Assembly (NCBI GenBank): GCA_017420625.1
Contig: JAFOIR010000100.1
Coordinates: 1-11,424 of the forward strand
From: Bacillota bacterium
GTDB lineage: Bacteria; Bacillota_A; Clostridia; Lachnospirales; Bianqueaceae
Direction of reading: 5' to 3'
Length of the DNA stretch: 11,424 bases
Notes under the pieces: model-generated
Seen by the model: the letters and a program-made list of their open reading frames with translations, nothing else
Databases searched by the model: none
Told to the model about the DNA's origin: nothing
Translations under genes and position numbers: made by a program
Shown here: one piece after another, positions 5,219-11,424 of the stretch
How positions within the stretch are numbered: the first letter of the stretch is position 1
Layout: every line of letters begins with the position of its first letter

Positions 5219-5344
5219 ACTCCGGATAGACACCTACCCGGCAGGTCATATCACATAGAAAGGTTTTCTTAGTGCTGCTTCCTTCCGGACCTGACACGAT
5301 TCGAAATTTCCTATTGTATGGTACCGAATAGGGCTACCCGGAGC
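5219..5344 (-). ncRNA. ffs: Small bacterial signal recognition particle RNA (4.5S-like)
   Basis: The minus strand at 5268-5295 carries the universally conserved SRP domain IV sequence (GTCAGGTCC, GGAAGGAAGCAGC, then ACTAAG), the binding site for Ffh. The ends close in a stem: CTCCGGGTAG at 5343-5334 pairs with CTATCCGGAG at 5229-5220, with one G-U pair. This gives a hairpin RNA of about 125 nt without an Alu domain. The 5' end fits the expected start site 7 nt after the TATACT box. The 3' end is placed at the end of the closing stem and is uncertain by a few bases. Its position upstream of dnaX is the usual one in Bacillota. Confidence 0.95.
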
Positions 5345-7766: not shown

Positions 7767-9062
7767 ATGTCTGCCTACACTCAGAATCTGACCGCTTATG
7801 AAGATCAAATCGCGAGGACCAGAGATCAACGGATGGCATGGTGGAGAAAGGCCCGGTTTGGCATGTTTATTCACTATGGTCTTTACTCAGTGATCGGAAG
7901 ACACGAATGGGCCATGTCGATGGAAGGGATCGATGTCAAAGATTATGAGAAAGCTGCTGACTGCTTCCATCCCAAAGAGGGCTGCTGCCGTGAATGGGTA
8001 CGTCTTGCGAAACAGGCCGGAATGAAATATGCCGTTCTGACTACACGGCATCATGAGGGCTTTTCTCTCTGGGATTCTGCTGTCAATCCCTACAACAGCG
8101 TCAATTACGGTCCCCACAGAGATATCGTTCGTGAATTTGTGGATGCTTGCCGTGAGGAAGGTTTATGGATCGGATTTTACAGTTCTCTTATGGACTGGCA
8201 TCACCCGGATGGTGCCCGCTGTGCGGATGATCTGTCAGCCCGCCGCCGATTCCTTGACTACATTGAAGCACTGAATACAGAGCTGCTTACGCAGTATGGC
8301 AAGATCGATATTCTCTGGTATGATGTACCGGATCCCATGGTGAATGCTGAAGAGTGGGATTCTCTTATGCGCAATCAGCGTCTGCGCGCTCTGCAGCCGG
8401 AGATCATCATCAATGACCGCAGTCGGCTTCCCGAAGATTTCGGAACACCGGAAGGCCAGATCCGCCCGCAGGAACGAGACTGGGAAGCCTGTATGACCTT
8501 CAACGATATTTCCTGGGGCTATCTGGACGAGGAACAATCTGCAGTCTATGCCTACAATGCTCCCAGGATCCTCAGAATGCTCTGCACCTGCAGCCGAAAC
8601 GGCGGAAATCTGCTTCTCAACATCGGTCCTGCGCCGGACGGTTCTGTTCCTAAAGACGCAGTCATGCCTCTCAGACAGGTTGGAGAATGGTTAAGAACAA
8701 ACGGGGAAGCTGTCTACGGACCGCTCCTGAAAAACCCGCTTGGAGCCTCCTGGTTCAGAGGAGGCAACGGGATCACAGGAATGACCTGTGCACAAAATAA
8801 AAAGGCGGTATATCTCTGGAACTGGATCACACCGCCAAATGGCGACATGTTCCTTGCCGGTTTCGATATACCTGCCTCTTCAATCATCGAGCTTTCAACT
8901 GGTCGGGAGATTCCCTTTGACAATCTGCCTGACGGCCGAATCCATCTGATGGACCTCAGGCGTCCCTGCGGTCCTGTCGGCGTAGCCCTTTACAAAGTCA
9001 GCTTTGATCAGCCTTTCGGATCCTATCGGCCTTTTGGAAAATACCCGCAGATCACCTTTTAG
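7767..9062 (+). CDS. Alpha-L-fucosidase, glycoside hydrolase family 29
   Basis: This 431-residue protein has no signal peptide, so it is cytoplasmic. The GH29 barrel motifs appear in order: WWRKARFGMFIHYGLYS (about 25-41), HEWAMSM (about 46-52), YAVLTTRHHEGFSLWDS (about 88-104), and DILWYD (about 181-186) whose Asp186 is the expected nucleophile. The TPE motif at about 227-229 supplies Glu229 as a candidate acid/base, at the spacing seen in the family. WEACMTFNDISWGY and NGGNLLLNIGPAPDG follow. The rest is a beta-sandwich-like tail, so the protein is about the usual size for a single-domain member. It would release L-fucose from imported oligosaccharides. The gene is divergent from the sugar permeases and shares their promoter region. 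Its TAG stop overlaps the stop of the convergent gene. Linkage preference cannot be assigned from sequence alone. Confidence 0.93.
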   Translation: MSAYTQNLTAYEDQIARTRDQRMAWWRKARFGMFIHYGLYSVIGRHEWAMSMEGIDVKDYEKAADCFHPKEGCCREWVRLAKQAGMKYAVLTTRHHEGFSLWDSAVNPYNSVNYGPHRDIVREFVDACREEGLWIGFYSSLMDWHHPDGARCADDLSARRRFLDYIEALNTELLTQYGKIDILWYDVPDPMVNAEEWDSLMRNQRLRALQPEIIINDRSRLPEDFGTPEGQIRPQERDWEACMTFNDISWGYLDEEQSAVYAYNAPRILRMLCTCSRNGGNLLLNIGPAPDGSVPKDAVMPLRQVGEWLRTNGEAVYGPLLKNPLGASWFRGGNGITGMTCAQNKKAVYLWNWITPPNGDMFLAGFDIPASSIIELSTGREIPFDNLPDGRIHLMDLRRPCGPVGVALYKVSFDQPFGSYRPFGKYPQITF

Positions 9063-9658: not shown

Positions 9659-9970
9659 TTATTCAAACTTGAATAGCCTGGTAAATCCGGTAATCTCAAA
9701 AACTTCCATTACCGCTTTGCTGACATTTCTTGCAATCAGAACACCATGCTTCTGGCGCATATCCATATATACATGTCGGAAGGCACGAAGACCGGCACTG
9801 GAAACATATTCCAGTTTTCCCATATCCAGGACAAGTGTCTCGAACTGGGGAACCAGAGAAACCAGGATATTTTCAACTTCCTGTGAATTCGTTGCATCGA
9901 TGTATCCGATCAGATGCAGTTCGCCTTCGGTTCCATGTTTGATCAGATTCATATCCATATTAATTTCCAT
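9659..9970 (-). CDS. STAS-domain protein (SpoIIAA-like anti-sigma factor antagonist)
   Basis: From the ATG at 9970 the protein has 103 residues, the length of a single STAS domain. The first strand is MNLIKHGTEGELHLIGYID. The central LVLDMGKLEYVSSAGLRAF motif (about residues 47-64) carries Ser57/Ser58 at the position that is phosphorylated by the partner kinase in SpoIIAA/RsbV proteins. The last helix is NVSKAVMEVFEITGFTRLF. Such proteins release sigma factors or other targets from anti-sigma kinases; no kinase or sigma gene is adjacent. A GTG at 9994 would add eight residues (MPPAEGGG), but those are encoded by a GC palindrome and I consider them non-coding. The AAGGCGG ribosome binding site lies inside that palindrome. 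An unknown gene follows in the same frame. An IS110 element lies just upstream. Confidence 0.88.
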   Translation of the reverse strand: MEINMDMNLIKHGTEGELHLIGYIDATNSQEVENILVSLVPQFETLVLDMGKLEYVSSAGLRAFRHVYMDMRQKHGVLIARNVSKAVMEVFEITGFTRLFKFE

Positions 9971-9973
9971 TCC

Positions 9974-9992
9974 GCCGCCTTCGGCTGGCGGC
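9974..9992. repeat. GC-rich palindrome at the STAS gene start
   Basis: GCCGCC (9974-9979) and GGCGGC (9987-9992) form a perfect 6-bp stem with a 7-base loop. In the STAS mRNA the stem covers the only plausible Shine-Dalgarno sequence (AAGGCGG), so it may dampen translation. Its REP-like character beside an IS110 element is notable, because some IS110 relatives insert at such palindromes. Confidence 0.75.
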
Positions 9993-10011
9993 ACAAATAG
10001 TGATGAAAGTA

Positions 10012-10040
10012 TCGACTGCCTTCCACGCTGTGCCTATAAT
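10012..10040 (+). promoter_or_regulatory. Candidate promoter of the IS leader RNA
   Basis: A perfect -10 TATAAT lies at 10035-10040. The -35 candidate TCGACT (10012-10017), spaced by 17 bases, matches the consensus at four of six positions. In IS110-type elements the complete promoter is often assembled only when the ends join, so a weak -35 at an integrated copy would be expected. The predicted start is about 10046. The opposite strand has a weaker TTGTAG-N16-TATTAT that could serve the STAS gene. Confidence 0.5.
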
Positions 10041-10045
10041 AAAAG

Positions 10046-10208
10046 CGAGAAGCTATACTACAAAGCACGGGGAGGTGAGTCGTAAAAACTCTCTCGTTTT
10101 AGACAGCATATTAATCAGTGTAAGTTCCACCTTCCAAGCACAAATAAGTGGCTCTATCAGACCGTACACTAAGAATTGTTTTAACTCTTGTTAAATGTGT
10201 GGTGGAAC
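10046..10208 (+). ncRNA. Candidate bridge RNA of the IS110 element
   Basis: This is an approximately 165-nt non-coding leader between a TATAAT box and the transposase gene. A first stem pairs CGAGA (10046-10050) with TCTCG (10092-10096). Inside it is GAGT (10077-10080)/ACTC (10088-10091). A second domain is closed by GTTCCACC (10124-10131) with GGTGGAAC (10201-10208), a perfect 8-bp stem, and contains TTTAAC-TCTT-GTTAAA (10180-10195). AGTGTA (10117-10122)/TACACT (10165-10170) is an alternative pairing. In the IS110 group such left-end RNAs guide the recombinase by pairing with target and donor DNA. Assignment rests on position, size and foldability, not on a covariance model. Confidence 0.55.
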
Positions 10209-10249
10209 AGTCAATGGCTTCTCTCACTTTTTAGAAAGGAGCGTTGCCC

Positions 10250-11424
10250 ATGAAAGTTGTTTATCAGACCTGCTGTGGCGTCGATGTTCACAAGTCTTTT
10301 CTCGTTGCCACAATCATCAAAACCACTTCCGGAGTTCAGCCTTCCTATCAAAAGAAGCGCTTCTCCACCTTTAACAATTCCATTCTTGAGTTTAAGAAAT
10401 GGCTGTTGGACAATTCCTGTCGTGATATCTGCATGGAATCTACCGGTAAATACTGGGTACCTGTGTTCAACCTTTTGGAAGACGAGATCAACGTCACCAT
10501 CGCCAACCCCAAATGGGTTAAGGCTGTCAAAGGGAACAAGGATGACACCAAGGATTCCAAGTGGATTGGGGATCTGTTCAGACTTGGGCTTGTGCCCGGA
10601 AGCTATATACCGTGTAAAGAGATCCGTATCCTCAGGGAGTTCACGAGATACCGGTATAAACTGACTTCCTGCAGAAGTAGCGAGAAGAATCGATTTCAAA
10701 ATGCGCTTACTGTCTGTAATGTCGCATTGGATTCGGTTGTTTCCGATATTTTCGGGAAATCAGCCACCTCTGTGATCGATTACCTCCTCGAACAGTCCGA
10801 CAATTCCATCAACCACGAAGAAATATCCTCCAGACTACTTCGTTCACTCAAGAAGAAGTCCGAGAGTGTCATTGAATCCATCGAAGGTTATCAGATGACT
10901 GATTCCCAGAAATATCGCATGCGTCTTGTCCACGCACACATGGATTATATCACATCAACAATCTCCGATATAGACTCAATGATTAATTCGTTGGTCGAAC
11001 CTTATGATAATGCTGTCAAGTTACTGTGTACCATTCCCGGAGTTGATCGCAACAGTGCGATAACTATAATCTCCGAGATTGGCACGGATATGACACAGTT
11101 TTCCAATTCCAAGCGTTTATGTTGCTGGGCTGGCCTGACTCCGGGTAATAATGAGTCAGCTGGTAAGAAGAAATCTGTTCGGATCACACGTGCCGGTGTC
11201 TACCTCAAACCTGCATTGGTACAAGTTGCCTATGCAGCCGTGAAATCAGACAAGTCTCCTTACTACAAAGCCAAATATGAGCGCATCATGAAACGTCGTG
11301 GTAAGAAACGCGCCATCATTGCGATCGCCAGGATGATCCTTACTGCCGCCTATCAAATGCTGTCTACAGGCGAGGTGTGGAATCCTACCGATCTTTACAA
11401 GATTGATATGCCTGAACCCCTCAA
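10250..11424 (+). CDS. IS110-family transposase (DEDD recombinase), C-terminus cut by window edge
   Basis: The frame is open from the ATG at 10250 to the right edge (391 codons plus two bases); family members are about 400 residues, so little is missing. The N-terminal RuvC-like DEDD domain shows CCGVDVHKS (Asp12), CMESTGKYW (Glu63) and KGNKDDTKDS (Asp99 and Asp102, the DxxD pair). A helical, lysine-rich middle follows. The C-terminal Tnp domain starts with LLCTIPGVDRNSAITIISEIG (about 258-278). It continues with FSNSKRLCCWAGLTPGNNES, where Ser303 is the candidate nucleophilic serine, and KKKSVRITRAG. The catalytic residues appear intact, so the element may be active. GAAAGGAG (10234-10241) lies 8 nt before the ATG. 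Together with a left-end RNA, such enzymes catalyse excision through a circle and RNA-guided insertion. Confidence 0.95.
   Translation, partial: MKVVYQTCCGVDVHKSFLVATIIKTTSGVQPSYQKKRFSTFNNSILEFKKWLLDNSCRDICMESTGKYWVPVFNLLEDEINVTIANPKWVKAVKGNKDDTKDSKWIGDLFRLGLVPGSYIPCKEIRILREFTRYRYKLTSCRSSEKNRFQNALTVCNVALDSVVSDIFGKSATSVIDYLLEQSDNSINHEEISSRLLRSLKKKSESVIESIEGYQMTDSQKYRMRLVHAHMDYITSTISDIDSMINSLVEPYDNAVKLLCTIPGVDRNSAITIISEIGTDMTQFSNSKRLCCWAGLTPGNNESAGKKKSVRITRAGVYLKPALVQVAYAAVKSDKSPYYKAKYERIMKRRGKKRAIIAIARMILTAAYQMLSTGEVWNPTDLYKIDMPEPL

Follow-up and report, generated by a model that had tools for sequence, protein, structure and literature searches.

The element and its relatives

The window, by which we mean the whole stretch of 11,424 nucleotides that was analysed, ends within an insertion sequence: it holds the left end of an IS110-family element together with the greater part of its recombinase gene, which is cut by the end of the window (Table 1). 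The left boundary of the element lies at about position 9961, and around 287 nt precede the gene. The ATG from which the initial annotation had the recombinase start is indeed found at position 10250. In a profile search the product matched the Pfam families DEDD_Tnp_IS110 and Transposase_20, and it scored 236 bits, against a cut-off of 140, with the NCBIfam model NF033542 ('IS110 family RNA-guided transposase'). Moreover, the recombinase of one relative (L004) can be aligned with the solved IS621 recombinase (8wt6). Comparison with IS621 yielded D12, E63, D99, D102 and S303 as the candidate DEDD residues and serine, which we take to be catalytic. A DEDD (RuvC-like) recombinase with a Transposase_20 domain and a conserved serine, as in the IS110 family in the broad sense, is thereby present. 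The gene had been described as apparently intact: the residues are all there, whereas only 391 codons lie inside the window versus 420 codons in many close relatives.

The best 80 of 189 related loci were kept for comparison. They derive mostly from Lachnospiraceae and other Clostridia, are 71-99% identical in their best segment, and are not independent because several are copies within one genome. Full copies mostly measure 1.62-1.68 kb. The right end is short, about 98 nt from the stop codon onward in L004, and together with the long left end that carries the RNA upstream of the gene this gives the layout of the IS110 group. Phage records contained no match. In the remainder of the window, a bacterial small SRP RNA (Rfam RF00169) is encoded on the minus strand (5232-5330) and an alpha-L-fucosidase family gene on the plus strand (7767-9062; Pfam 1.5e-76).

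Element ends were located with an approximate search whose patterns were CCATTCCGC and a tip with TA as its last bases; the constancy of these letters is partly by construction because they served to locate the ends. The CAT and NNN discussed below were absent from the search pattern. The flank analysis used 64 of the 80 left flanks and 68 right flanks.

Table 1. Features of the element and its insertion site in the window
Feature	Position	Strand	Remarks
STAS-domain host gene adjoining the left end	9659..9958	-	start CAT 9956-9958 inferred from the junction pattern
Left junction CATATTA	9956..9962	.	start codon 9956-9958, variable NN, likely core TA 9961-9962; from flanks and empty sites in relatives
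Left tip	9963..9971	.	in host sense Shine-Dalgarno-like AATGGAAAT in the window, GGAGAT in most relatives
Left-end hairpin CCGCC/GGCGG	9972..9991	.	stem preserved where the sequence changes, e.g. L037, L042, L071
Left subterminal inverted repeat TAGTGATGAAAG	9998..10009	.	partner of CTTTCACACTA at the right tip of relatives; by eye
Sigma-70-like promoter, TCGACT-17-TATAAT	10012..10040	+	predicted, sequence match
Bridge/seek RNA	10045..10224	+	ends approximate, about 180 nt; alignment of 46 left ends
Right target guide GGGAGGTGAG	10070..10079	+	Shine-Dalgarno-like; would pair with the top strand
Left target guide CATATTAAT	10107..10115	+	identical in sense to the left junction; predicted pairing with the bottom strand
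Domain 2	10124..10208	+	closed by 10124-10131/10201-10208 and 10138-10142/10196-10200
Donor guide ACACTA	10166..10171	+	equal to the right tip of relatives
IS110-family recombinase	10250..11424	+	ATG at 10250, 391 codons present, continuing past the window end

A conserved RNA structure upstream of the recombinase gene

An alignment of 46 left ends revealed a structured RNA between the left tip and the recombinase gene. Five left ends (L054, L061, L070, L078 and L080) were lost to the search pattern, L068 was excluded for its insertion, and L072, which has a long left end, was omitted from the left-end comparison. RNAalifold predicted 39 pairs, 14 of them with two-sided changes. A structure of 32 pairs chosen from this prediction has 97.2% of the cells paired across the 46 left ends, and 13 of its pairs change on both sides. 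None of 500 shuffles reached it in any of five measures; versions slid along the alignment dropped to 30-43%, a control that is biased toward the structure because the latter was derived from the same alignment. G-U pairs read on the plus strand are frequent (42 U-G at columns 10/185 and 45 G-U at columns 102/169), which is consistent with an RNA of the plus strand. Folded alone, the RNA of the window is not exceptional (z -1.73, with 11 of 200 shuffles as good), and the evidence for structure is therefore comparative. Rfam contained no family above threshold at the RNA region, the SRP RNA being its sole match in the window.

The bridge RNA proposed in the initial annotation is borne out by this comparison, in a corrected form. 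The 8-bp stem 10124-10131/10201-10208 (helix 4), which closes the second domain, is perfect in the window, as had been noted, and shows two-sided changes in 6 of its 8 pairs among the 46 relatives. The proposed 5' stem 10046-10050/10092-10096 is possible in the window sequence but did not hold up across relatives, with 79.1% of cells paired versus 77.1% after shuffling (reached by 23 of 500 shuffles). A comparatively supported outer helix takes its place, in which 10047-10055 and 10057-10059 pair with 10215-10223 and 10209-10211. A structured RNA does cover the suggested interval 10046-10210, but it ends later, at about 10224, since the outer helix reaches 10223. The region lies upstream of the recombinase gene and not downstream, the alternative that an element of the IS1111 type would have presented. 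The RNA may be transcribed from within the left end. The TATAAT reported at 10035-10040 is exact and is preceded at 17 nt by TCGACT. This promoter matches at 10 of 12 positions and is weak evidence by itself, as one site was found against a mean of 0.6 in shuffled sequence.

Insertion between Shine-Dalgarno sequence and start codon

The flanks of the relatives revealed a preference for translation starts. CAT, usually the start codon of a host gene on the opposite strand, stands in register in 57 of the 64 left flanks. The frames read outward from it have a median length of 200 aa, 45 of the 57 being 60 aa or longer; among the 128 control frames, which are the two remaining frames of each of the 64 left flanks, 5 are that long. 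In the window, the corresponding frame (9659-9994) matches the Pfam STAS domain (1.1e-13). Once the two flanks are joined, 49 of 55 sites contain a GGAGG-like motif that agrees at 4 or more of its 5 bases, and in 38 of these 49 it precedes the start codon by 4-9 nt. The motif was taken as the best-scoring position within 24 nt, without a shuffle control. The right flank thus usually appears to be the Shine-Dalgarno sequence of the host gene.

Related genomes retain the site without the element. The L042 site is uninterrupted in all five relatives tested, e.g. CATTTTA followed by TTATCTCC in L093 and by AAATCTCC in L095. Among the relatives of the L013 site, six of seven have an uninterrupted CAT..CTCC; in L101 the alignment ended short of the junction. 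These empty sites indicate, on comparative grounds, that the element was inserted between Shine-Dalgarno sequence and start codon. The likely core of the exchange is TA, because the right tip ends in TA and all L042 relatives have TA. Against this, 4 of 6 informative L013 relatives have TC at that place, and position -6 varies. A core CT as in IS621 was set aside in favour of TA on the basis of the flank alignment and the empty sites.

Candidate guides matching target and donor DNA

Searching the loops for matches to the flanks and ends, as the initial annotation had suggested, uncovered covariation between the RNA and the DNA it would recognize. An RNA segment CAU-NNN-AA (10107-10114) matches the left junction, and NNN is equal in RNA and flank at 58 of the 64 loci, with the flank permitted to shift by one base wherever the tip contains an additional one. 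Shuffling gave a mean of 5.8 and a maximum of 16 in 20000 trials. The agreement persists in 41 of 44 left ends with similarities below 95%; with each distinct combination counted once, it holds for 15 of 18. Moreover, 15 further left ends provided 11 new sites (four of which are copies in a single genome) with NNN agreeing in 10 of them; L115 is off by one base. In a mutual-information scan of every pair of columns drawn from flank, left end, RNA and right end, for which 34 of the 46 alignment rows were used, two flank/guide pairs ranked first and second, and the third such pair was found, together with two right-tip/guide pairs, within the 45 strongest column pairs displayed. Guides that update themselves after insertion were considered and rejected: copies within one genome share their RNA though the flanks differ by a base (L005/L006, L033/L034).

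A second match links the second domain to the element itself. The hexamer at the right tip equals an RNA segment in 66 of 67 loci, spanning six sequence variants. An element-encoded structured RNA with loops that match target and donor (right tip), again a trait of the IS110 family in the broad sense, is thus found by comparison. A guide for the left tip did not emerge: no RNA segment complementary to ATCTCCATT was found by eye, and the mutual-information scan is unable to reveal one because the left tip hardly varies. The segment GCACAAAUA, which equals a stretch of the left end, was weighed as a possible donor guide; it is partly a strand of helix 5.

The GGAGG-like right guide has modest statistical support. 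Compared with their own right flanks, the guides of 60 loci scored 258 versus a shuffled mean of 230.8 (23 of 10000 shuffles reach 258), and many single matches are poor, e.g. 1/10 in L002. In L009 an unusual right flank, GGCTTTGAG, goes with an equally unusual right guide, GGCTTTTAG. On the other side, both left guide and flank of L054 and L058 read ACACTAATC in place of CATNNNAATC. As to the sites themselves, L009 may be a case of natural retargeting; the frame behind its CAT is just 5 aa. The flank of L054 and L058 resembles the right tip of a miniature element, which suggests insertion beside such a tip.

Left tips at the start of host genes

Read in the sense of the host gene, GGAG is present in the left tip at 61 of 67 loci, 6 nt ahead of the start codon; a tip joined to a start codon would read GGAGATTANNATG. 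The copy in the window has GGAA instead. The subterminal repeats are about 9-10 bases long and imperfect, as judged by eye, and one column pair joining left end and right end is complementary in all 34 rows. A promoter directed outward from the left end was judged by eye only and dropped; its -10 is not conserved. On the opposite strand of the right end, behind the host Shine-Dalgarno sequence, a short GTG frame is present in 63 of 69 loci, e.g. one of 19 aa in L002 (VKESRGQPKSGALKQAIEK).

The tip also occurs apart from complete elements. The pattern CATNNNAATCTCCATTCCGC was found in 48 of 200 Lachnospiraceae genomes, at 136 places, and its reversed control at none; the next left-end block, ACAAATAG, follows at 43 places in those 48 genomes. 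A right-tip pattern, found at 42 places, fits the main clade only, and its count does not compare strictly with those of the left tip. We classified 53 tips as 9 with guide RNA, 13 miniature, 30 solo and 1 at a contig end, in classes that are crude: L130, L148 and L149, counted as solo, resemble miniature forms by eye, and in L112 and L127 the following left-end block is preserved. The guides of the nine match their own flank in eight cases and are off by one base in the other. Of the 44 tips without guide, 42 stand before a frame that stays open for 60 aa or more, or as far as the retrieved flank extends, the exceptions being L107 and L152. The retention of tips at gene starts fits their use as ribosome-binding sites, without proving it.

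The miniature forms measure 43-267 nt from left tip to right tip. Those of 66-71 nt (L126, L134, L153) and of 137-145 nt (L135, L136, L138, L139, L144, L146, L147, L150) stand at gene starts and carry the same left tip along with a right tip; the type of about 140 nt recurs in genomes G066, G145 and G232. Apparently devoid of recombinase gene and guide RNA, the miniatures are possibly non-autonomous passengers. In genome G008, three lone left tips (L085, L086, L087) are located at the start codons of frames of at least 234 codons, with no element behind them. A right tip directly abuts another left tip in L135, L142, L144, L147, L148 and L150; such tandems would be expected were the left junction itself a target.

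Proposed mechanism and alternatives

Taken together, we consider it highly probable that this IS110-family element carries a bridge (seek) RNA in its left end that guides insertion between Shine-Dalgarno sequence and start codon, with the left tip donating a replacement ribosome-binding site. The guides of the first domain would describe a translation start, one being Shine-Dalgarno-like and the other copying start codon, spacer and core TA of the top strand. Bound to the DNA, these two target guides would pair with opposite strands of the ribosome-binding site of the host gene, and the guide of the second domain would match the right tip of the element. The recombinase would then carry out strand exchange at TA or close to it, so that the element comes to lie, in one orientation, between Shine-Dalgarno sequence and start codon. 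As the left tip would supply GGAG at normal spacing, the host gene would be given a replacement ribosome-binding site from which it may be translated. The circle junction is predicted to read CACACTAATCTCC, and the copy in the window to terminate, past position 11424, in CACACTA or a near variant of it, with CTCC no more than a few bases further on.

A conserved region directly upstream of the recombinase gene could conceivably be co-transcribed with it, and might then be an untranslated leader that regulates the gene with no guide RNA involved. We regard this as very improbable, as a leader would not be expected to track, base by base, the flanking host DNA (58/64) or the right tip (66/67). 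Hardly any credence is given either to the idea that the NNN beside CAT belongs to the element, so that its match to the RNA would be internal and uninformative on target choice. Copies within one genome do often share NNN (L012, L013 and L016; L026-L028), but pairs of such copies with the same RNA differ there (L005/L006, L033/L034), and the CATTTTA of L042 is already present in the uninterrupted sites of L093 and L095.

It is also conceivable, although unlikely, that the RNA guides the choice of the spacer bases only, and that the preference for a Shine-Dalgarno sequence and start codon stems from the recombinase or from the survival of harmless insertions. Indeed, these two signals are near-constant and hence give little covariation signal, and the support for the right guide is modest. 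Yet right flank and right guide are unusual alike in L009, and in L054 and L058 guide and flank both have ACACTAATC where CATNNNAATC is usual.

Relation to known systems

The element combines features of two groups. In IS621, according to excerpts of Durrant (2024, PMC11208160), each loop pairs with the bottom strand by its 5' side and with the top strand by its 3' side, the target is a REP element, and subterminal repeats of the IS110 group span 2-3 bp. The present element shares with IS621 the recombinase kinship, an RNA upstream of the gene, a left end that is longer than the right end, and two RNA domains, one for target and one for donor. The expectation that two loops specify target and donor as in IS621 thus stood as far as target and right-tip guides are concerned, but the order of the target guides is reversed, the 5' guide (10070-10079) being top-pairing and the 3' guide (10107-10115) bottom-pairing. 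In addition, it targets a translation start and not REP, and its subterminal repeats, as judged by eye, appear longer. In ISEc21, as in IS621, the guide for the bottom strand comes first (5') and that for the top strand second (3'), according to Siddiquee (2024, PMC11187229); this order of the IS110 group is not that of the window element. For IS1111 the same paper gives the top-strand match 5' and the bottom-strand match 3', a downstream non-coding region and a recombinase of 330-350 aa, and mentions upstream-RNA exceptions. With IS1111 and its seekRNA the present element shares the order of the target matches and the subterminal inverted repeats. It differs in that the RNA lies upstream and the recombinase counts about 420 aa, both as in the IS110 subgroup, and in that a hairpin separates the left repeat from the left tip, at a distance of about 35 nt versus about 7 bp in IS1111. 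Thus, RNA placement is IS110-like, whereas guide order and, as far as judged by eye, subterminal repeats are IS1111-like.

An IS110-family element that targets translation starts is already in print, as the title of Doran (1997; cited in PMC8141618) reads 'IS900 targets translation initiation signals ...' (Mycobacterium avium subsp. paratuberculosis). According to the passages on IS900 in PMC8141618, an opposite-strand hed ORF spans that element; in the relatives of the present element, the frames on the opposite strand behind the right tip are short, measuring 3-37 aa in 68 of 69 loci. The likeness to IS900 lies in the targeting of translation starts, known for IS900 from a title. A literature search, outside bioRxiv preprints and most subscription papers, found no guide-RNA account of IS900 and no bridge RNA that reads Shine-Dalgarno sequence and start codon. 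The target consensus of IS900 is reportedly made up of CATG and CNCCTT, one on either side.

We lean, with some reserve, towards a more general reading. The guide RNA would encode a general grammar of translation starts, with many targets per genome, and the left tip would be a portable ribosome-binding site. Miniatures mobilized in trans, and solo tips that outlasted the decay of an element, may have remodelled the 5' leaders of many genes in Lachnospiraceae; the left junction would recreate the target and give rise to tandems. The analysis offers a testable RNA-guide explanation for the choice of translation starts by insertion sequences, as reported for IS900, and adds an architecture in which IS110 and IS1111 traits are combined. 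It suggests an origin for some of the repeated 5' leaders in Lachnospiraceae genomes, and points to a natural recombinase that could put DNA before genes, in one orientation, in gut Lachnospiraceae.
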